In this document: one piece after another, positions 4,257 to 64,000 of the stretch | How positions within the stretch are numbered: the first letter of the stretch is position 1 | How the letters are laid out: the number at the start of each line of letters is the position of its first letter | DNA from: Rhodovulum robiginosum | Lineage (GTDB): Bacteria; Pseudomonadota; Alphaproteobacteria; Rhodobacterales; Rhodobacteraceae | Assembly (NCBI RefSeq): GCF_003944755.1 | Contig: NZ_RWGU01000050.1 | Location: forward strand, 186,001-250,000 | Length of the DNA: 64,000 bases | Direction of reading: 5' to 3' | Program-made: the position numbers and the translations under genes | The notes under the pieces: model-generated | The model's input: the letters and a program-made list of their open reading frames with translations, nothing else | Told to the model about the DNA's origin: nothing | Databases searched by the model: none

Positions 4257-6031
4257 TCGCTCTGTCCTTGCCGCCGACCGCCGCCGCCCTTGTCGCGCTG
4301 ACCGTGGTCATTGTGATGTTCGTGCTGTTCATAAAGGAAATTTACCCGACCGAGGTGATCGCCATCGCCGGTGCGGTGCTGATGCTCGTGCTGGGCATCC
4401 TGCCCTATGACGTGGCGCTGGGCGTTTTGTCGAACCCCGCGCCCTGGACCATCGCGGCGATGTTTCTGGTGATGGGCGCATTGGTGCGGACCGGCGCGCT
4501 CGACTGGTTTACCTCGGCGGCCGAGCGCAACGTGCGCCGCAAGCCGCGCCGGTCCATCGTGTCGATGTTCGCCTTCGTCGTAGGTGCCTCGGCGGTGGTG
4601 TCGAACACGCCGGTCGTGGTGGTGATGATCCCGGTCTTCGTGCAGCTTGCGCGGGTGATGGATATCTCGGCATCCAAGCTTTTGATCCCGCTGTCCTATG
4701 CGGCGATCATGGGGGGAACCCTGACGCTGATCGGCACCTCGACCAACCTTTTGGTCGATGGCGTGGCACGGGCCCACGGCATGACGCCGTTCTCCATCTT
4801 CGAGGTCACGCCGCTGGCCGCGATCCTGATCGCCTGGGGCATGGTCTATCTGCGTTTCGTCGCGCCGCGGCTGCTGCCCGACCGCGACAGCATGGCGAAC
4901 CTCTTGTCCGACAAGTCGAAGATGAAGTTCTTCACCGAGGCGGTGATCCCCCCCGACAGCAACCTGATCGGGCGCGAGGTCACCGGCGTGCAACTCTTCA
5001 AGCGCGAGGGCGTGCGGCTGATCGACGTGATCCGCGGCGATGAATCGCTCAGGCGCAACCTAAAGGGGGTCGAACTGCAGGTGGGCGATCGGGTGATCCT
5101 GCGTACCGCGGTGACCGAGCTTTTGTCGCTGCAGCGCAACAAGAGCCTGCGCCGGGTCGACCAGCTGTCGGCGGTGGAAACCTCGACGGTGGAGGTGCTG
5201 ATCTCGCCCGGATGCCGGATGATCGGCCGCTCGCTGGGCTCGATGCGGCTGAGGCGGCGCTACGGCGTTTATGTGCTGGCGGTGCACCGCCGCAACCAGA
5301 ATATCGGCCGTCAGATCGACGAACTGGTGGTGCGCGTGGGCGACACGCTGCTTCTGGAGGGGGCGGCCCCGGACATCAAGCGGCTGGCCGACGACATGGG
5401 GCTGGTCGACATCTCGCACCCCTCGGGCCGGGCCTACCGGCGGACCAAGGCGCCGGTGGCCATCGGCGCGCTTTTCGGCATCGTGGGGCTGGCCGCGCTG
5501 GGCGTGGCGCCGATCCTGCTGCTGGCGCTAGCGGCGGTGGCCGTGGTGCTGCTGGCCCGCTGCATCGACGCGGAAGAGGCGTTTTCCTTCGTCGACGGGC
5601 GGCTTTTGGCGCTGATCTTCTCGATGCTGGCGGTGGGCGCCGCGCTGGAGGCCTCGGGCGCGGTCCGCCTGCTGGTCGACGCGGTGTCGCCCGCGCTGAT
5701 GAACCTGCCGCCGTTCATGATCGTCTGGGCGATCTACCTCTTGACCTCGGTGCTGACCGAACTGGTGTCGAACAACGCGGTGGCCGTGGTCGTCACGCCC
5801 ATCGCCATCGGGCTGGCGGGCGCGCTGGGGGTCGATGCGCGGCCGCTGGTGGTGGCGGTGATGATTGCCGCATCGGCAAGCTTTGCCACGCCCATCGGGT
5901 ACCAGACCAACATGATGGTCTACGGCCCCGGCGGCTATCGCTTTACCGACTTTCTGCGCGTGGGCATTCCGCTGAACCTCAGCATGGGGCTGTTGTCCTC
6001 GGCGCTGATCCCGCTGCTCTGGCCCCTTTAG
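4253..6031 (+). CDS. SLC13-family permease with two RCK_C (TrkA_C) domains
   Basis: 592 aa inner-membrane transporter of the divalent anion:Na+ symporter / ArsB-NhaD superfamily (sulfate or dicarboxylate-type substrates). N-terminal membrane helices carry TLIGTSTNLLVDG, the first substrate/Na+ motif. The middle (about 215-390) is a soluble region with two TrkA_C modules (VIPPDSNLIGREV..., LISPGCRMIGRSL...). C-terminal helices carry the second repeat motif ATPIGYQTNMMVYGPGGYRF. This layout matches the family in length. A convergent second permease of exactly the same length lies at 6165-7943. The substrate cannot be assigned; sulfate, sulfonates and C4-dicarboxylates are all found in this group. 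Confidence 0.88.
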   Translation: MIALSLPPTAAALVALTVVIVMFVLFIKEIYPTEVIAIAGAVLMLVLGILPYDVALGVLSNPAPWTIAAMFLVMGALVRTGALDWFTSAAERNVRRKPRRSIVSMFAFVVGASAVVSNTPVVVVMIPVFVQLARVMDISASKLLIPLSYAAIMGGTLTLIGTSTNLLVDGVARAHGMTPFSIFEVTPLAAILIAWGMVYLRFVAPRLLPDRDSMANLLSDKSKMKFFTEAVIPPDSNLIGREVTGVQLFKREGVRLIDVIRGDESLRRNLKGVELQVGDRVILRTAVTELLSLQRNKSLRRVDQLSAVETSTVEVLISPGCRMIGRSLGSMRLRRRYGVYVLAVHRRNQNIGRQIDELVVRVGDTLLLEGAAPDIKRLADDMGLVDISHPSGRAYRRTKAPVAIGALFGIVGLAALGVAPILLLALAAVAVVLLARCIDAEEAFSFVDGRLLALIFSMLAVGAALEASGAVRLLVDAVSPALMNLPPFMIVWAIYLLTSVLTELVSNNAVAVVVTPIAIGLAGALGVDARPLVVAVMIAASASFATPIGYQTNMMVYGPGGYRFTDFLRVGIPLNLSMGLLSSALIPLLWPL

Positions 6032-6078
6032 GCCGCGCGCCGGCCCGGGCGCGGCGCGGATTGTGCCGTCGTGCCATT

Positions 6079-6100
6079 GGGTATTTGGACCAAGAAGAAG
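6079..6100 (+). repeat. Intergenic repeat copy 1 (TATTT...CCAAGAAGAAG)
   Basis: A 22-base unit of the form GGG-TATTT-n-G-n-CCAAGAAGAAG sits in the 133-base gap between the two convergent SLC13 genes. Near-identical copies occur at 10237 and 16978, with a diverged one at 28871. All are outside genes and in the same orientation. Confidence 0.7.
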
Positions 6101-6164
6101 GGCAGGCAGGCGCCCTTGCCCCGATTGCCGGGCGCAAGGAGGCGCGCTGCGCGGCGCGCGCCTG

Positions 6165-7943
6165 TCACAGCGGCCAGACCACCAGGATCGTCGGGATCGA
6201 CACGGCAAGGACCAGCAACTCCAGCGGCAGGCCCATGCGCCAGTAATCGCCGAAGCGATAGCCGCCGGGACCGAGGATCAGCGTGTTGTTCTTGTGCCCG
6301 ATGGGCGTGAGGAACGCGCAGGACGCGGCAACCGCGACGGCCATCAGGAACGGGTCGGGATTGACCCCGAGCCGGTTGGCCATCTCGATGCCCACCGGCG
6401 CGGCGACAACGGTGGTGGCGGTGTTGTTGAGCACGTCCGACAGGGTCATCGTCACCGCCATCAGCGCGGCGAGGATCGCCCAGGGCGGCAGGCCCTCGGT
6501 CACACCCACCAGCGCGCCGGCGATGAGCGCGGTGCCGCCGGCCTCATGCAGCGCGGTGCCGAGCGGGATCATCGCGCCCAGCAGCACCACGACGGGCCAT
6601 TCGACGTGGTCGTAGATCTCGGCCAGCGGCAGGATGCGGGACAGGACGTAGCCGACGACCACCACGCCCAGCGCGATGGGCAGGTCGATCATCCCGATGC
6701 TGGCGGCCAGCACCGCGCCCGCGAAGACCGCGATGGCAAGCCATGTCTTGCGGTGGTTGGTGACGGCAAGCCCGCGGTCGGCCAGCGTCAGCCCGCCCAG
6801 CCAGTCGGCCACGTCCTGGGACGTGTCCTGCGGCGCGAGCAGCAGCAGGATGTCGCCCGGCCGCACGGTGGTCTTGCGGATCTGGCTGCGGATCGGCCGG
6901 CCCTGACGCGAGATGCCCAAGAGGACGGTTCCGCGCCGCCAGGCGAGCCCGACCGAGCGCGCGCTCTTGCCGGCGATGCGCGCACCCTCGGGCACGACGA
7001 TTTCGACGAGGTTAAGCCCGGCGCCCGCGGCGCTCAGCGCCTCTTGCCGCGGGCTTTCGGCAAAATCGAGCCCCAGCGAGGTGCGCAGCGCGTCGAGCGC
7101 CGCAGGCGTGGCATCGAGCACCAGCGCGTCGCCGGCGGCGAGGGCGGTGGCGCGCTGGGTGCCGTAGCGGCGCCTGCCGTCGCGCACCAGCCCGAGGATG
7201 GCGACGTCGTTCTCCTCGGCCTGGGGCCACAGATCGCCCAGCCGCTGCCCGATGAGCGGCGATTCTTCGGGCACCGTCAGTTCGGCGATATAGGGCGAGA
7301 AGGCGGCGAGCGTGCCGTCCGTGGCAGACGCGTCGGGCCGCGGGATAAGCCGCCAGCCGATCAGCGCGACGAAAGCGAGCCCGGCAAGCGCGGTCACCGC
7401 GCCCACCGGGGCGAAATCGAACATTCTGAACGGCTCTCCCAGGCTGTCGGCGCGGATCGTGGCGATGATGATGTTGGGGGGCGTGCCGATCAGCGTGGCC
7501 ATGCCGCCGAGGATCGTGGCAAACGACAGCGCCATGAGGCTGAGGCCCGGCGCCCGGCCCGCCTTGCGCGCGGTGGCGATGTCGACGGGCATCAGGAGCG
7601 CCAGCGCGGCAACGTTGTTCATGAAGGCCGAGAGCGCCGCGCCGACAGCGCCCATGATCGCGATATGGGCGCCGATGGGCCGCGCACTGTCGATCATCGT
7701 GCGGGTGATCAACTGCACCGCGCCCGACCGCACGAGGCCCGCCGAGACGATCAGCACCAGCGCCACGACCATCGTGGCCGGGTGGCCGAACCCGGCGAAG
7801 GCCTCGTCTGTCGGCACGACGCCGGCGAGCACCGCGACCAGCAGCGCGCAGAACGCCACCAGGTCGTAGCGCCAGCGCCCCCAGAGCAGACCCGCGAAGA
7901 CCGCGGCGAAAATTGCAAACAGGATGATCTGGTCCTGGGTCAT
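6165..7943 (-). CDS. SLC13-family permease with two RCK_C (TrkA_C) domains
   Basis: 592 aa inner-membrane permease of the same family as the gene at 4253. The frame is open upstream to 8294, but that extension runs antisense into yebC. The ATG at 7943 (MTQDQIILFAIFAAVFAGLL) begins directly with the first membrane helix. Visible features are TLIGTPPNIIIATI (first anion/Na+ motif), two TrkA_C segments around residues 210-385 (VPEESPLIGQRLGDL and VPEGARIAGKSARSVG), and the second motif LTPIGHKNNTLILGPGGYRFGDY. It is convergent with its paralogue and divergent from yebC across 130 bases. Substrate unknown. Confidence 0.88.
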   Translation of the reverse strand: MTQDQIILFAIFAAVFAGLLWGRWRYDLVAFCALLVAVLAGVVPTDEAFAGFGHPATMVVALVLIVSAGLVRSGAVQLITRTMIDSARPIGAHIAIMGAVGAALSAFMNNVAALALLMPVDIATARKAGRAPGLSLMALSFATILGGMATLIGTPPNIIIATIRADSLGEPFRMFDFAPVGAVTALAGLAFVALIGWRLIPRPDASATDGTLAAFSPYIAELTVPEESPLIGQRLGDLWPQAEENDVAILGLVRDGRRRYGTQRATALAAGDALVLDATPAALDALRTSLGLDFAESPRQEALSAAGAGLNLVEIVVPEGARIAGKSARSVGLAWRRGTVLLGISRQGRPIRSQIRKTTVRPGDILLLLAPQDTSQDVADWLGGLTLADRGLAVTNHRKTWLAIAVFAGAVLAASIGMIDLPIALGVVVVGYVLSRILPLAEIYDHVEWPVVVLLGAMIPLGTALHEAGGTALIAGALVGVTEGLPPWAILAALMAVTMTLSDVLNNTATTVVAAPVGIEMANRLGVNPDPFLMAVAVAASCAFLTPIGHKNNTLILGPGGYRFGDYWRMGLPLELLVLAVSIPTILVVWPL

Positions 7944-57708: not shown

Positions 57709-57768
57709 CGGAAAATTCGCGACTCACCGCCTATCACCGCTGCAAGGCACATGCTTGCGGAGGACGCG

Positions 57769-58266
57769 ATGAGCGTGGAACGTCCCATCCCCGACGGCCG
57801 GACCACCGGCTTTCTGATCGGCTATCTCGAGATGCTGGCCCTGGTGGAACGGCTGCACCGGTTGATGCTCGACGTCATCAAGGACGAGTTCGAGCGGATC
57901 GGCCTGCCCGAGCTCAACCCGGTGCAGGCGCTGCTGCTCTACAATATCGGCGACAACGAGGTGACGGCGGGCGAGCTGAAAACGCGGGGCTACTACCAGG
58001 GCTCGAACGTGTCCTACAACCTCAAGAAGCTCGTCGAATACGGCTACATGCACCATCAGCGCTGCGCCATCGACCGCCGCGCGGTGCGGGTGCGCCTGAC
58101 GCCCCGCGGCCGGGCGGTGCGCGATACTCTCGCCGCGCTCTTTGCGCGCCACGCAGAGGGCCTCCAGTCCGGCGGGCTGCTGGAGCGCCTGGCGATGGAA
58201 GAAATCACCGGCGGCCTGCGCCGGGTGGAACGCTACTGGGGCGACCAGATCCGGTATATCTACTGA
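57769..58266 (+). CDS. MarR-family regulator, LdtR type
   Basis: 165 aa winged-helix regulator. The sequence TTGFLIGYLEMLALVERLHRL, LNPVQALLLYNIGDNEVTAGEL, GYYQGSNVSYNLKKLVEYGY, DRRAVRVRLTPRG and the ending RRVERYWGDQIRYIY are characteristic of alphaproteobacterial LdtR, which in Liberibacter controls an L,D-transpeptidase and stress tolerance. The ATG at 57769 has the ribosome site GCGGAGG; ATG 57751 is a less likely start. It is preceded by sdhE and followed by a 180-base gap. Confidence 0.88.
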   Translation: MSVERPIPDGRTTGFLIGYLEMLALVERLHRLMLDVIKDEFERIGLPELNPVQALLLYNIGDNEVTAGELKTRGYYQGSNVSYNLKKLVEYGYMHHQRCAIDRRAVRVRLTPRGRAVRDTLAALFARHAEGLQSGGLLERLAMEEITGGLRRVERYWGDQIRYIY

Positions 58267-58446: not shown

Positions 58447-60330
58447 ATGCTCCGCCGCGACCTTTTGAAAGCCGCCACGGCCGCCATGCTTGCCGGTCCA
58501 GCATCCGCCCAAGTGCAGGACCGGCAGATCGCGGGGCCGGTCGCCGCCGTCTACCATGGCTTTGCCGAATTGAAAGCCGGCGTCGAGAAAGGGGAACTCG
58601 CCGCGCTTGCCGATGGTACCGCGGTGCGGGCGGGGATGTGCCTTTACCTTACGGACGCAGCGCGCACCGGCGCGGCGGCGATCGTCCCCGAGCTTCCGGG
58701 GCTGGTGCCGTGGCCAGGTGGCGAGATGGTCGAGCATTGGGGCGCCGTCGGTGACGCAGCAGCCGACGACAGCGCGCCGATCATCCGGGCGCTGGCCTGG
58801 TTCGCCGAGGCGGGCCGGCCCGTGGAATGGGGTGGCGGCACCTACCGGTGCGAAAAGAACCTCGACGGGTTCGCAAGGCTGGTCCATGCGGGCCGCGGGG
58901 TGATCCACCGCGGCGAAGACAGCTATACGATAAGCGATGTCCACGGTGCGAGAAACGTTATCCACTGTGCGCCGCCCGAGAGCGCGGGTGAGAATGACGG
59001 GCTGACGCGCGCGACGCCCACCGATTACGTCACCGCGTTCAATTTCGTCGAGGCCCACGCGGGTATCCGGCCAGCGCAAAGGTGGCGGGTCCAGTACATT
59101 TCGGGAGTCTACGCCTTCAAGGGCGCGCGCCGATTGGAAAATTTCCCGACGACCTTGTATCCGATCGAATTCATGGGACAGGCGGACGAATTCGGTACCC
59201 CGACCGTGATTTTCGATGGTGGGCCTCACGGCGTGCCGGCCTTCAAACGGTTGCGGGGCGGTGCGCCGGTCAACCTGCATTTCGAAAACCTGAAATGCGT
59301 GAATTTCGACCAGTCCCAGGGCGCATTTCAGATCTGGTACGATATCAACGTCACCGCGGTAAACCTGCATGCCGCGGATTGCAGGGGCATGGTCTACGCC
59401 TGGCGCAACGGGGTCGTGGAACAGCACAAGGGGGTTTTCGACAACTGCGAGGGTTGTATCAACTTTCAGGACGTCTACGGCGCTGCCGGCGATCTCAACG
59501 GCACGCCGGGCACGGATGAGATCGTGTTCAACGACTGCACGGGAATTGGCTGTGTGCACTATACCCGTGGTACCAAAGCGTACCTGCGCGGCTGCGAGTT
59601 CAACAATGTCGATGTCGGCATCTTGATATCGCGTCATGCGCGATGCCGCACACAGGGCAATCGTTTCAATTCATGGAAAGCCGCCGCGATCAAGGCCGAG
59701 ATGTTCGCGATCTGGAACTACGACCGCTCCGACCTGGATCGGATGACCGGAGCGACGAACAAGAAGGCCACAGTGCTTTGCGAGCCATTTTGCGTCATCG
59801 ACCGCGTGCACAAGGATACGTCGCGGCCCAACGGGCACATGTATTACTATGACACCCCGATAACGTGGAGCGGCACGTCGCGCACAGCGCTTTCCGAAAA
59901 TCAATATGGCTCGGAAAACCTGACACCATTCAGAATGCCGGCATGGTGGCTCTATCACACCAAGGCGAAAGGCGAGGGCCGTGTCGAGATCACCGTGCCG
60001 AAGGGCGATACGTGCCTGATGGAGATCACCGGCGCCGGGAGCGGGGCGAAGAACGTGCTTTGCGATGTCACGCTGCCCGAGGGACATTGGTTGTGCGAGT
60101 TCGAGTTCACCGGAGAGCGGCCCGACAAGCCGACCAACCGCTTCTTCGTCCGGGCGTTTCGAAGCAACTCGTCGGATGTCGTGACCAATGCGGGCAGCAT
60201 GGCCGCGATGAACAACCGGGCAAACGCCGACGCCTCCAATTCGGATATCGAGTTCAGGCTTTACGGCACGTTGCGTGTCGGCACCTCGGAGGCGTCGATC
60301 ATTCGGATGGAGACCGATGTCATTCTGTGA
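58447..60330 (+). CDS. Tat-exported right-handed beta-helix protein
   Basis: 627 aa. N-terminus MLRRDLLKAATAAMLAG is a twin-arginine (RRDLLK) signal, cleaved near ASA-QVQ. Around residue 98 begins the polysaccharide-lyase/tail-spike start motif EHWGAVGDAAADDSAPIIRAL and WGGGTYRCEKNL. The centre (about 180-440) shows beta-helix coils with repeated N-rich turns (VNLHAADCRGMVYAWRNGVV, FDNCEGCINFQ, LRGCEFNNVDVGILIS, CRTQGNRFNSW). The C-terminal 130 residues look like a separate beta-sandwich (VEITVPKGDTCLMEITGAGS). I see no lyase catalytic triad. Polysaccharide binding or cleavage outside the cytoplasm is inferred; no phage genes surround it. Confidence 0.68.
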   Translation: MLRRDLLKAATAAMLAGPASAQVQDRQIAGPVAAVYHGFAELKAGVEKGELAALADGTAVRAGMCLYLTDAARTGAAAIVPELPGLVPWPGGEMVEHWGAVGDAAADDSAPIIRALAWFAEAGRPVEWGGGTYRCEKNLDGFARLVHAGRGVIHRGEDSYTISDVHGARNVIHCAPPESAGENDGLTRATPTDYVTAFNFVEAHAGIRPAQRWRVQYISGVYAFKGARRLENFPTTLYPIEFMGQADEFGTPTVIFDGGPHGVPAFKRLRGGAPVNLHFENLKCVNFDQSQGAFQIWYDINVTAVNLHAADCRGMVYAWRNGVVEQHKGVFDNCEGCINFQDVYGAAGDLNGTPGTDEIVFNDCTGIGCVHYTRGTKAYLRGCEFNNVDVGILISRHARCRTQGNRFNSWKAAAIKAEMFAIWNYDRSDLDRMTGATNKKATVLCEPFCVIDRVHKDTSRPNGHMYYYDTPITWSGTSRTALSENQYGSENLTPFRMPAWWLYHTKAKGEGRVEITVPKGDTCLMEITGAGSGAKNVLCDVTLPEGHWLCEFEFTGERPDKPTNRFFVRAFRSNSSDVVTNAGSMAAMNNRANADASNSDIEFRLYGTLRVGTSEASIIRMETDVIL

Positions 60331-60483: not shown

Positions 60484-61203
60484 TTATCGTGCCAGGCCCA
60501 GCACCGGCACCTCGAGTTCTCGCAACAGCTTGCGCACCATCGCGGCCTCGAAATCGGCAAAGCCCATCGCCGTTTCCACAAAGGCGTCCGCCCCGCGGAT
60601 CACCTCGGCGCGGAAATAGGCGGTGAGTTCGCCCAGCCCGACCTCGGCATGGTCGATGCGGTTGGCCGCATCCGTGCCGATCACCAGCGCGTTGACCGTG
60701 ATCCCGGCGAGGGCGGGCGCAGCGCGTACGTCGCGGGGGCGGGGGCCCTCGTTCGACTTGCCGTCGCCGGTGACATCCAGCGTACGCTTCCAGCAGGCCG
60801 CCTGATCGCCCAGCATTCGCCCCCCGGCAATCAGCGCCGCGCCCAGCCCGGTGGTGTGCGTGGTCGCCCGGCGCCGGCTGTCGCGCAGGTGGCCGGCGGC
60901 GGCGGCCAGCGCCGCCGCGCTTTCGATCTCGGCCCAGGGCAGCAGGAGCCGCTGGTCGGTCTGGCCGGCCCATTCGAACACGGCCAGCCGCACCGGGGCG
61001 TTCGGCATCGCCAGCAGCGCCGCTGCGACCTCGGGGTGTTCCAGCGCCGCGGCCAGCCCATCGACCTGAAGCCGGTATTCCAGCGCGTCGACCGAGCCCG
61101 ATACGTCGAGCCCAATGGCCAGCGCCTGCCGGCAGGCGGCTTCGGCGCCGGGGGCCAGCGCCGCCGCGACAAGCGCGGCGTTCATCAGGCGGCGCGCCTT
61201 CAT
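60484..61203 (-). CDS. Secreted DUF1194 (VWA-like) protein
   Basis: 239 aa, signal peptide after MKARRLMNAALVAAALAPGAEA. MIDAS-type LAIGLDVSGSVDALEYRLQ, then FEWAGQTDQRLLLPW, TTHTTGLGAALIAGGRML, LDVTGDGKSNEGPRPRDVR and the ending VRKLLRELEVPVLGLA. Start ATG 61203 overlaps the stop of the preceding DUF1194 gene by 4 bases (ATGA); an internal ATG at 61185 is possible. Paralogue of the gene at 61200 and of that at 45557. Periplasmic, partner unknown. Confidence 0.85.
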   Translation of the reverse strand: MKARRLMNAALVAAALAPGAEAACRQALAIGLDVSGSVDALEYRLQVDGLAAALEHPEVAAALLAMPNAPVRLAVFEWAGQTDQRLLLPWAEIESAAALAAAAGHLRDSRRRATTHTTGLGAALIAGGRMLGDQAACWKRTLDVTGDGKSNEGPRPRDVRAAPALAGITVNALVIGTDAANRIDHAEVGLGELTAYFRAEVIRGADAFVETAMGFADFEAAMVRKLLRELEVPVLGLAR

Positions 61204-61907
61204 CCGCCCGCGGCCGGGCGGGGCAGGGCGCCGATCACCCGGGCCTGCACCTCGCGGAACAGCTTGCGCCGCATCGCGCGGGCGAAATCGTCGAAATCCT
61301 TCGCTTCCTCGACAAAAGCACCGGGGCCGCGGATCACCTCGTCGCGGTAATAGGCAAACACCACGGCGTCGTTCTCTGTTGCTCCGCCGATGGCCAGCCC
61401 GTTCACGGTGATGCCGTCCAGCGGAAAGCTGGAATAGGCGCGGGCCGGGCCGAACCCGTCGTTGTTGATGCCGTCGCCGGAGATGTCGAGCGTGCGGAAC
61501 AGGCACTCCGGCGCGCCGCGGAATACTCGGGCGGCGTAGCCGATGCCATAGCCCATGGCGGTGGGAAACTCGGCATAGCTGCGCTTGGAGCCGGCGATCT
61601 GCGCCGCCGCCCCGGCGATGGCCGCCGGGCTGTCGAGCATGCGCCAGTCGAGCAGCATGTCCTGCTGGTAGCGCCCGCTCCATTCGTAGACGGCCAGCGC
61701 GACGGGGGCCTCGGGCTGGGCCAGCAAGGCCTCGCGCACCTCGGGCGCGGTCAGCGCGGCGGCCAGGCCCGCGCGCTGCAGGCGGTCTTCTTCGGCATCG
61801 ACCGACGAGGAGATGTCCAGCGCCAGCACCAGCGCCAGACGGCAGGCTGCCCCGGCCGGGGCGGCGGCCCCGACCGAGGCCGCCAAAGCCGCCAGAAACC
61901 TTACCAA
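61200..61907 (-). CDS. Secreted DUF1194 (VWA-like) protein, TTG start
   Basis: 235 aa from a TTG at 61907, giving a signal peptide VRFLAALAASVGAAAPAGAA. No ATG or GTG gives a plausible N-terminus, since the frame upstream runs antisense-like through the VOC gene. MIDAS-type LVLALDISSSVDAEEDRLQ, VYEWSGRYQQDMLLDW, FPTAMGYGIGYAARVF, LDISGDGINNDGFGPARAY, ending MRRKLFREVQARVIGALP. Its start overlaps the glyoxalase stop by 7 bases, and its stop overlaps the next DUF1194 start. A tandem duplication with divergence. Confidence 0.82.
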   Translation of the reverse strand: MVRFLAALAASVGAAAPAGAACRLALVLALDISSSVDAEEDRLQRAGLAAALTAPEVREALLAQPEAPVALAVYEWSGRYQQDMLLDWRMLDSPAAIAGAAAQIAGSKRSYAEFPTAMGYGIGYAARVFRGAPECLFRTLDISGDGINNDGFGPARAYSSFPLDGITVNGLAIGGATENDAVVFAYYRDEVIRGPGAFVEEAKDFDDFARAMRRKLFREVQARVIGALPRPAAGG

Positions 61908-62329
61908 TGGCCCGTGTTTTCCATGCTCGCCCAGGGCTCGGCCTTGGGCAGCGGGTCGCCCATCTGCAAAAGCTCGACCGAGATGTTGTCCGGGCTGCGC
62001 ACGAAAGCCATGCGGCCGTCGCGGGGCGGGCGGTTGATGGTCACGCCATTGTCCATAAGGTGCTGGCACATGTCGTAGATATTCTCGACCGCGTAGGCGA
62101 GGTGCCCGAAATGCCGGCTGTCCGAGGGCAGCCCCTCGTCGCCGTCCCAGTTATAGGTCAGCTCGACCGGGCATTCTGCCTGTCCCGGTGGCGCCATGAA
62201 GATCAGGGTGAAGCGCCCGCCTTCGTTTTCGCTGCGGCGCGTCTCTTCCAGCCCCAGCAACTCATAAAAAGCGATGGATTTTTCCAGATCCTTCACGCGG
62301 ACCATGGTGTGCAGATAGCGAATTTGCAT
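61901..62329 (-). CDS. Lactoylglutathione lyase-like VOC protein (glyoxalase I)
   Basis: 142 aa. MQIRYLHTMVRVKDLEKSIAFYELLGL is the classic glyoxalase I start with His7 as metal ligand. Then FTLIFMAPPGQAECPVELTYNWDGD with the metal Glu, HFGHLAYAVENIYDMCQHL with a His, and FVRSPDNISVELLQMGDPLP with the final Glu. All four metal ligands are present. It would detoxify methylglyoxal-glutathione. Start ATG 62329 with GGAGGGAAAC upstream. Head of a three-gene unit with two DUF1194 genes. Confidence 0.9.
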   Translation of the reverse strand: MQIRYLHTMVRVKDLEKSIAFYELLGLEETRRSENEGGRFTLIFMAPPGQAECPVELTYNWDGDEGLPSDSRHFGHLAYAVENIYDMCQHLMDNGVTINRPPRDGRMAFVRSPDNISVELLQMGDPLPKAEPWASMENTGHW

Positions 62330-62388
62330 GTTTCCCTCCGTTTTGCGCCAGACATAGCACATGCACCCGTTGGTGCGAGGGGAGGATG

Positions 62389-63756
62389 TCAGAACGTCGA
62401 GCGGAATCCCACGGTCAGGCCGATCTCTTCGGATTCGTAAAGCGAGATGTTCGATCTGTTCGAGACCGCGTTCAGCCCGATCTCGGGGGCAAAGCCGTAT
62501 TGCGCAAACTCGGGCAAGACAACGCTGACCGCGAGGCGGAACCGGTCGTCCTCTCGCGGGGCGCCGCCATAAAGCGGCTTGTCGTAGTCGCGCCGCTCAT
62601 AGGCCAGCGACGCGCTGAAATAGGCCCCCGCGACGGGTTTGGCGCGGTCGTAGCTCAGCGTCAGGATCTGCGCGTCATGGGCCACGGCGGCGGCCTCCGA
62701 CACAGTGTCGCGCAGGCCAAAGCCGAGGGTCACGCGGTCGCCGCCGTCCAGCCGCCGGCCGAATTCGGCAAGGCCCGTCACGACTGTGGAGTCAAAGATT
62801 GAATTGTCGTCGCGCCACTGGCCTTCGCTGGAAAGCGTCAGCTTGACTCCCATCCGCGGGGTCAGCGCAAAGGATTGCCCCAACTCCGCACGGACGATGT
62901 CGGCCAGCGGGTCGCCACCGTAAAACACCTTGCCGACGCCGAAATCGAAGCTCGTCACCCCGCGCCTACCTTCGCCTGGCCAGCGCACGCCGAAATTCAA
63001 TTCTCCGCTCTGGTAGGCAAGGTCGCCCGCGTCGAGATCGGGCGCCTTCTCTTTGGCATCGGAGGACAGCCGGTAGGCGCGCCCATAGAGGTTGGCGCCC
63101 ACATGCATCAGCGCGCCGTCGCCGGCGCGAAAGCGATAGCGGGTGGCCGCGCCATAGGAGAATTCCAGGCCCGACAGCGCCTGCGCCGATCCGCTGAGAA
63201 GGAAGGGCACGCCGCCGATAATGATCGTATCGGATTCCGCGCCATCGTTGATGTTGGACGACGGCGTTACCGCGAAATGCAGTTGGCTGGACCAAGGGTT
63301 GCGGCTGCGCACATAGCGGTAGTCGCGGGCGGCCATGGCCTCGCGCCGGTCGTCTGGCGCGGTCTGTGCGGCGCGGCGCAGCCAGATCTGGGCCCAGGTC
63401 CGCTGACCCGCCGACGACATCGCCTGCGCCGTGACCATGGCGGCGGCATAGCGGTCGGCATCGGTTTCGGCCACGCGCCAGGCGGCGCGGCCGGCGTCGA
63501 TTGCGGTGTCGTAAAGCCCCAGGTTGCGCGCCGCGCGTGCCTTGACTGTCAACGCGTAACCGTCATCGGGGTCGCGCGCGAGGAGCGCCTCTGCCAGCCG
63601 TAATGCGATCTCGTCCTCGCCGCGGGCCACCGCCGCGGCGGCCGTGGCGCGCATTTCTTCGGGCGACAGGCGGGCCGGTTCGGCAAGACCGGCGCCCGCC
63701 GTGAGGGCGAGCGCCAGGCTGAGTGCGACCTGCCGCAGGACGGAGGGCAGGCGCAT
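62389..63756 (-). CDS. Slam-like outer-membrane protein (TPR + DUF560-type barrel)
   Basis: 455 aa. Signal peptide (VALSLALALTAGAGLA), then a TPR-like helical region (about 30-140: GEDEIALRLAEALLARDPDDGYALTVKARAARNLG in parts), then from about 155 a beta-barrel with alternating strands, ending in VGFRSTF whose terminal Phe is the usual outer-membrane insertion signal. TPR followed by a barrel of about 300 residues is the architecture of Slam, the surface lipoprotein assembly modulator. The gene starts 5 bases after the stop of a TbpB-like gene, as Slam genes sit next to their lipoprotein substrate. A generic TPR-porin is the alternative. Confidence 0.65.
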   Translation of the reverse strand: MRLPSVLRQVALSLALALTAGAGLAEPARLSPEEMRATAAAAVARGEDEIALRLAEALLARDPDDGYALTVKARAARNLGLYDTAIDAGRAAWRVAETDADRYAAAMVTAQAMSSAGQRTWAQIWLRRAAQTAPDDRREAMAARDYRYVRSRNPWSSQLHFAVTPSSNINDGAESDTIIIGGVPFLLSGSAQALSGLEFSYGAATRYRFRAGDGALMHVGANLYGRAYRLSSDAKEKAPDLDAGDLAYQSGELNFGVRWPGEGRRGVTSFDFGVGKVFYGGDPLADIVRAELGQSFALTPRMGVKLTLSSEGQWRDDNSIFDSTVVTGLAEFGRRLDGGDRVTLGFGLRDTVSEAAAVAHDAQILTLSYDRAKPVAGAYFSASLAYERRDYDKPLYGGAPREDDRFRLAVSVVLPEFAQYGFAPEIGLNAVSNRSNISLYESEEIGLTVGFRSTF

Positions 63757-63761
63757 GGCGT

Positions 63762-64000
63762 TTACGGCCGGTAGAGGATGAAGCCGCCGGTTTCGCGCAC
63801 GGTCACGCCCTCGGCGCGCGGGTCTTCGGCGGTGACGGCGATGATGCCCACCACCTCTTCGGCGTTGTCGCCGGAGAGCACCGCGTAGTAGTTGCCGTCT
63901 TCGTAGACTTCAGCCGAGCCGCTGTTGGTCTGCACGAAGCTGCGCACGCTGCCGGTCAGCTCGCCATTGGTGTCCAGCGCGTCGGGCGAGATCACGAAGC
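63762..64000 (-). CDS. C-terminal end of a TbpB-like surface protein (partial)
   Basis: Only the last 78 residues are inside the window; the frame is open through the right edge. The sequence shows beta-hairpins of a small barrel: SAEVYEDGNYYAVLSGDNAEEVVGIIAV (quoted in parts), where GDNAEEVVG resembles the GPNAEEVGG stretch of TbpB/HpuA-type barrel domains. It lies 5 bases upstream of the Slam-like gene. Transport to the cell surface by Slam is inferred. The lipobox and ligand-binding lobes would lie outside the window. Confidence 0.5.
   Translation of the reverse strand, partial: FVISPDALDTNGELTGSVRSFVQTNSGSAEVYEDGNYYAVLSGDNAEEVVGIIAVTAEDPRAEGVTVRETGGFILYRP

Follow-up and report, generated by a model that had tools for sequence, protein, structure and literature searches.

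A probable Slam-type exporter and its cognate lipoprotein covary in divergence at a published Rhodobacteraceae/Roseobacteraceae locus

Introduction

Two adjacent genes at the end of the window (the 64,000-nucleotide stretch of Rhodovulum robiginosum DNA analysed here) raise the question of whether this alphaproteobacterium encodes a Slam exporter together with a surface lipoprotein of its own, and what kind of cargo such a lipoprotein would be. Slam proteins, the exporters of type XI secretion systems (T11SS), combine TPR helices with a 14-stranded barrel; in 2017, Slam-related genes were reported in all clades of Proteobacteria, and relatives in alphaproteobacteria were listed (PMC5449769). 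TbpB, LbpB, HpuA, fHbp and the hemophilins are named as T11SS cargo (PMC12282271, PMC8406197), and Slam1 moves TbpB into liposomes, aided by Skp (PMC9090332). The seven exporters experimentally verified before PMC12282271 (Grossman 2025) all fall in its animal-associated cluster 1. The same study describes a marine cluster 3 T11SS locus in Rhodobacteraceae/Roseobacteraceae that carries thyX, cargo, DUF560 protein, glyoxalase and DUF1194 genes. Our literature search found no title on experiments at this locus.

Results

Organization of the locus

The pair and its neighbours are as follows; L002 positions are those of the same locus continued beyond the window.

62389..63756, minus strand: putative Slam/T11SS-type outer-membrane protein gene (455 aa; PF04575 match, AF2 model), hereafter exporter
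63762..64000, minus strand: 3' part of the putative cargo lipoprotein gene, of which the last 239 bases lie inside the window
L002 5762-6850 (G000:C22 249762-250850), minus strand: the whole cargo gene (362 aa), read from the same contig
61901..62362 (likely start 62329), minus strand: glyoxalase/lactoylglutathione-lyase family gene (PF00903, 64.5 bits)
61200..61907, minus strand: first DUF1194 (vWA-like) protein gene (PF06707, 237.5 bits; signal-like N-terminus, DxSxS motif)
60484..61203, minus strand: second DUF1194 protein gene (PF06707, 218.9 bits; signal-like N-terminus, DxSxS motif)
58447-60330, plus strand: gene of a 627-aa protein (signal-like N-terminus), flanked by the DUF1194 genes on one side and the MarR gene on the other
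57751..58266, plus strand: MarR-type regulator gene (PF13463/PF12802), linked in many relatives
L002 7045-7974, divergent from the cargo gene and on its other side: flavin-dependent thymidylate synthase (thyX)
L002 7977-9446, plus strand, directly after thyX: gene of a 489-aa protein with a sub-threshold ORC-CDC6-like match, which looks like a P-loop NTPase
L002 11208-13064, minus strand: gene of a 618-aa FkbM methyltransferase plus family 2/92-type glycosyltransferase (PF13704, 62.6 bits)

The cargo gene lies upstream of the exporter gene on the same strand, and 5 bases separate the two (L002 5762-6850 and 4389-5756), as the first-pass annotation had noted. The exporter gene is followed downstream by the glyoxalase gene and then by the two DUF1194 genes. 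For the first of these, we infer a likely TTG start within the last bases of the glyoxalase gene (61901-61907), which suggests coupled translation. In many relatives, the DUF1194 and MarR genes are close neighbours; here, the gene of the 627-aa protein, for which no Pfam match was found at E<=0.01, intervenes. Farther out on the window side are genes for an aminotransferase, an MgtE-like protein and a MATE exporter. The glycosyltransferase gene on the other side came to light when eight additional neighbours were scanned with Pfam.

The outer-membrane protein has a predicted Slam architecture

The translation of the exporter frame (62389-63756, minus strand) begins with MRLPSVLRQVALSLALALTAGAGLA and ends with GFRSTF. 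Its 455 residues comprise a signal peptide, TPR-like periplasmic helices and a barrel part, with Phe as the last residue. In an AF2 model calculated from the window sequence and 76 relatives (pLDDT 94.8, pTM 0.83), helices occur between residues 5 and 152, seven of them between 32 and 152, and 14 long strands between residues 155 and 453, with a short hairpin at 177-186. The helical part would form an N-terminal periplasmic TPR domain and the strands presumably a 14-stranded barrel, the strand count being a predicted one. This agrees with the first-pass description of a TPR-plus-barrel outer-membrane protein with a terminal Phe. The C-terminal Phe is found in all 77 exporter homologues whose stop codon lies inside the locus, the remaining 3 of 80 running off the contig.

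Profile searches point to the DUF560 family, a similarity that had been put forward as a check on the barrel. The exporter matches Pfam PF04575 (DUF560/SlipAM) with 26.9 bits, above the curated cut-off of 22, over residues 381-455; the match is modest, as it covers profile positions 210-288 of 288 only, that is, the C-terminal 79. TPR models of Pfam also match the protein, all below cut-off. Among 77 aligned exporters (76 of 80 plus the window's; L072, L090 and L109, which run off the contig, and L086, which was read short, were left out), SlipAM is detected at E<=0.001 in 60 and TPR_16 in 25. A search of the organism's own genome returned one SlipAM protein, the window's exporter, and no second DUF560 protein. 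When solved structures were searched with the exporter sequence alone, one match at chance level was obtained, while the best 60 matches listed for the exporter profile were mainly TPR-type proteins.

Foldseek placed BcsC and PelB at the top of the matches of the exporter model, with porins next and no Slam entry among the best 50. Hence, the protein could be a polysaccharide exporter of the PgaA/BcsC/PelB kind, likewise built of TPR and barrel, with the lipoprotein as an accessory. In the network clusters of PMC8406197, a PgaA cluster was once inside PF04575, and the glycosyltransferase/FkbM-methyltransferase gene lies about 4.4 kb past the cargo gene. However, PgaA has 16 strands as compared to 14 in T11SS proteins (PMC8406197), and the exporter model has 14. 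In addition, the glycosyltransferase gene is found beyond thyX, the P-loop gene and two DUF genes (DUF1810 and DUF2177), the seven scanned genes nearest the pair are without a Pfam glycosyltransferase or synthase match, and a homologue of the partner protein has the predicted fold of a T11SS cargo (see below). We consider a role in polysaccharide export highly improbable.

The partner is a putative lipoprotein with a predicted T11SS cargo fold

The first-pass annotation had likened the C-terminus of the upstream gene product to the small barrels of TbpB and HpuA and proposed to extend the sequence in search of a lipobox. The extension gives a complete protein of 362 aa. Its N-terminus, MAQKYLALALLVPLVAC-GGSGDGSNPIN..., contains a putative lipobox, LVAC, with Cys17 as the lipidation residue by pattern, followed by a linker rich in Thr, Asp and Gly; its C-terminal part contains SGDNAEEVVGII. 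The signal peptide with lipobox appears conserved, the pattern being present in 75 of 75 aligned homologues, for which start codons had been picked with the lipobox in mind; a stricter pattern missed 3 of the 75. This alignment covers 75 of 80 homologues, leaving out L054, L067, L102, L108 and L109 (frames of 443, 27, 150, 523 and 184 aa, respectively); in L067 and L109, the cargo frame meets a stop inside the profile match.

Family profiles hardly recognise the cargo. The sole Pfam hint is FHBP_C, with 21.6 bits against a cut-off of 28.1, and the scan gave no TbpB_B_D match. At E<=0.01, FHBP_C is detected in 19 of the 75 homologues and TbpB_B_D in 1; neither the cargo nor most of its homologues reach the cut-off of either model. 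NCBIfam gave no match above cut-off, and searches of solved structures with cargo profiles gave no convincing match. No second cargo was found in the organism's own genome.

The cargo fold was taken from a homologue of Actibacterium (L032), 61% identical to the window's cargo, and not from the window's protein. The AF2 model of this homologue with 74 relatives (pLDDT 87.6, pTM 0.82), in which confidence is low as far as residue 55-60 or so, consists of a handle and a C-terminal barrel; nine strands are listed from residue 164 on, eight of which would form the predicted barrel. Thirteen PDB matches were returned by Foldseek at E<=0.001, namely TbpB (11), an fHbp chimera and NHBA, all with probability 1.00; their TM-scores, normalised by model length, are low (0.29-0.35), the rmsd is large, and identities range from 10 to 16%. 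NHBA is likewise counted among T11SS cargo. A second structural aligner ranked fHbp first (Z 15.3), together with hemophilin/HphA (13.5), NHBA (12.1) and HpuA (10.9), TbpB and LbpB being also among the matches listed. On superposition, 112 residues matched the fHbp barrel 4ayn at 2.1 A (Z 11.7); an alignment to the NHBA domain was also obtained. The profile match fails for the cargo whereas the predicted fold does not. Hence, the proposed likeness to TbpB and HpuA holds for the fold of L032, which falls among TbpB, fHbp, NHBA, hemophilin and HpuA, but not for the Pfam scan, where FHBP_C appears, below its cut-off, and TbpB is absent. TbpB proper has two handle-barrel lobes and a TbpA partner; the present protein has 362 aa and a single handle-barrel unit in the L032 model.

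With such a fold, the pair could serve nutrient uptake in the way TbpB or a hemophilin does, passing haem or iron to a TonB-dependent receptor, since the L032 model matches both TbpB and hemophilins. However, the only PF00593 match in the genome, this being the one TonB-receptor domain searched for, is on contig C51, away from the locus, and TonB domains are rare at cluster 3 loci according to the available text of PMC12282271. At 90% conservation, the 75 cargo homologues share no His, no Met except Met1 and no Cys except Cys17; conservation at this level does occur at several Tyr, Arg, Asp and Glu positions. In 74 upstream regions, perfect inverted repeats with 7-bp arms occur at 4 loci, as compared to a shuffle mean of 3.05 and maximum of 7, a weak test for an iron operator, and the GAAAAGT-TG-ACTTTTC repeat of the window's own locus is absent from all the others. 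With neither a TonB receptor beside the pair nor a conserved His or Met in the cargo, we favour surface binding or an interface function over uptake of haem or of the transferrin type, and regard a nutrient receptor as unlikely. Among 8-letter words of the 74 upstream regions, the commonest was AAAGTCAA/TTGACTTT, present in 31 (at most 7 after shuffling); we read it as a -35 promoter element.

Cargo and exporter genes occur together

In single-sequence searches of 61 genomes (own included), the cargo was found in 10 and the exporter in 17. A scan with a seven-row cargo alignment, one genome per species, yielded 133 relatives, and 80 of them were retained; we take their genera to be Rhodobacterales, with the exception of L084 ('Proteobacteria bacterium'). 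All 80 loci have an exporter relative on the strand of the cargo match, no more than 250 bases after it, and the adjacency is therefore more than chance. The other neighbours are a glyoxalase relative (74 loci), thyX (65), DUF1194 (55) and MarR (55), some misses falling in loci cut short at contig ends; for DUF1194, loci shorter than 12.8 kb account for 8 of the 25 misses.

As these 80 loci had been picked by the cargo, a second count was started from the exporter, and this one weighs more. Of 295 genomes in the family, 187 contain a match to the exporter profile. From the best 150, with at most 5 first-look candidates scored per genome, we retained 139 exporters in 135 genomes (E<1e-80), the E-value ranking being truncated only beneath this threshold. 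Of these 139 close exporters, 127 are preceded by a cargo-family gene. For 81 of them, the upstream gene matches the cargo profile (type A) within 1.5 kb, some matches being weak, down to E 6e-4; in the other direction, an adjacent exporter row accompanies 87 of the 94 cargo-profile rows, leaving 7 without. Upstream of the other 58 exporters, 46 DNA regions match the model of a diverged cargo relative (type B), 15 of them independently, since 31 of the 46 built that model. The type A model alone detects 32 of the 58 at E<=0.01 (small set), giving 81 + 32. Neither model matches the opposite strand of the upstream regions. In a profile-profile comparison (probability 99.8, E 6e-29), types A and B align over nearly all of their length.

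The peptide xP[FILVM] (x = N, Q, E or S), at most 14 residues from the lipid Cys, occurs in 66 of 75 type A proteins and 36 of 43 proteins of the second set. Among type B cargo, from upstream regions L115-L168, 31 have by pattern a Cys-Gly-type tail past the last predicted strand.

The 12 exporters without a cargo match comprise L113, cut by a contig end, L147, preceded by a short unmatched lipoprotein, and 10 without recognisable cargo. A thyX match lies upstream in 5 of the 12 (L112, L121, L132, L139 and L147); in L112, L121, L132 and L139, where no recognisable cargo stands between, the cargo may have been genuinely lost.

Cargo and exporter divergence covary

Distances were compared in the 54 of 80 loci where cargo, exporter, thyX and glyoxalase genes are all complete. 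Cargo and exporter distances correlate with r 0.67, and the partial Mantel r given thyX and glyoxalase is 0.643, a value reached by 0 of 5000 permutations (maximum 0.275). The rows are related to one another, and the two controls are imperfect because both genes evolve slowly. With exporter and thyX removed, cargo and glyoxalase distances still give 0.352, so that part of the co-divergence may be shared history; cargo and thyX give 0.063. Overall, cargo and exporter divergence covary beyond the neighbour genes.

These counts bear on a further possibility, that the cargo-exporter link is historical only, the exporter handling DUF1194 proteins while the barrel lipoprotein stays periplasmic. PMC12282271 raises DUF1194 proteins as possible cargo, finding them at 102 of 145 cluster 3 loci, and the window's locus has two such genes. 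In contrast, DUF1194 relatives are present in 55 of our 80 loci whereas the exporter stands beside the cargo in 80 of 80, the reverse count gives 127 of 139, and the covariation remains after allowing for thyX and glyoxalase, the only two controls. On these grounds, a DUF1194 substrate in place of the lipoprotein appears very unlikely.

Discussion

A probable Slam exporter with its cognate lipoprotein

Gene order, lipobox pattern, DUF560 match, predicted folds, co-occurrence and co-divergence together argue for a Slam (type XI secretion) exporter and its cognate surface lipoprotein as the identity of the pair, with a probability of roughly 0.87. Lipidation, transport and surface exposure of the cargo are inferred from the published Slam1 work. 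By this analogy, the cargo would initially carry a type II signal peptide and receive its lipid at Cys17, and Lol and a Skp-like holdase would take it across the periplasm, as in Neisseria. The TPR domain would then engage the cargo, which would be passed on unfolded, either through the 14-stranded DUF560 barrel or along it, and whose own C-terminal barrel would fold outside the cell. In the end state, the lipid would sit in the outer leaflet, bearing a flexible acidic linker and a handle-plus-barrel head. On the same analogy, export of the cargo by the window's exporter is likely.

Rhodobacterales Slam proteins could further be separate from host-nutrient piracy, almost all of them with a dedicated, co-diverging lipoprotein of a new substrate class, for instance an adhesin or surface-interface protein. 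The cargo, of which there are two sequence types, would then carry a TbpB/fHbp-like head on a variable linker that follows a conserved post-lipobox peptide (often xPF/xPI); a Cys-Gly...Cys tail is frequent in one of the types. We hold this reading tentatively, at somewhat less than even odds; it is based on the lack of a TonB receptor beside the pair here, on the few reported at such loci in the available text of PMC12282271, and on the aquatic hosts.

If the pairs of ordinary aquatic bacteria are near-obligate and diverge together, this would point to surface display of lipoproteins by Slam as a general trait of Rhodobacterales. Nature would then also supply many matched pairs from which to learn what the exporter recognises in its cargo.

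Comparison with known systems

The predicted cargo fold is shared with fHbp (Z 15.3), the NHBA C-terminal domain (12.1) and hemophilin/HphA (13.5), as judged from the L032 model. The cargo differs from these by an identity of 11-22% among the best 50 matches listed and by the lack of a conserved His or Met.

The Slam1/TbpB and Slam2/HpuA systems of Neisseria resemble the present pair in the TPR domain and 14-stranded DUF560 barrel of the exporter and in the TbpB-like barrel of the cargo, as far as the models predict them, and Slam2 adjoins HpuA as the exporter adjoins the cargo here. In contrast to the two lobes of Neisseria TbpB, the cargo has one handle and barrel. Also unlike in Neisseria, no TonB receptor lies beside the pair and a single SlipAM protein was found in the genome.

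The closest system is the marine cluster 3 locus of PMC12282271. It carries, as here, a flavin-dependent thymidylate synthase, a DUF560 protein, a lactoylglutathione lyase and at least one DUF1194 protein, and its cargo is an SPII lipoprotein of 282-375 aa with a C-terminal barrel, like the protein predicted here. From the available text of that study, the loci show no essential difference. They differ in how regularly a cargo was found. The locus was described in 11 strains, with a hand-curated lipoprotein as predicted cargo in 10, while the automated search gave 0.21 cargo per exporter in cluster 3; our count is 127 of 139 exporters, and the two are not strictly comparable because the exporter sets differ (145 sequences in PMC12282271). 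Nevertheless, the cargo partner gene is more regularly present in our sample than the published automated count suggested. The explanation that we favour for the value of 0.21 is that cargo Pfam scores are weak, and the rarity of barrel-type cargo beside cluster 3 exporters in the automated result looks like a detection limit.

PMC12282271 names Pseudooceanicola marinus LMG 23705 as a strain without cargo. At the syntenic locus of this strain (L053), we observed an uninterrupted 342-aa cargo lipoprotein frame (6001-7026) in the gene order thyX, lipoprotein frame, exporter, glyoxalase, DUF1194.

The first-pass proposal of an alphaproteobacterial Slam pair is thus supported as regards exporter and cargo, the lipobox and the DUF560 similarity whose lack would have refuted it both being present, but such a pair had already been published (PMC12282271; relatives in PMC5449769). 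What is added here is the count of 127 of 139, the covariation with a partial r of 0.64 and the uninterrupted cargo frame of P. marinus LMG 23705. Since the same syntenic locus is described in PMC12282271, the window pair is not a new system but a further member of the published Rhodobacteraceae/Roseobacteraceae locus.
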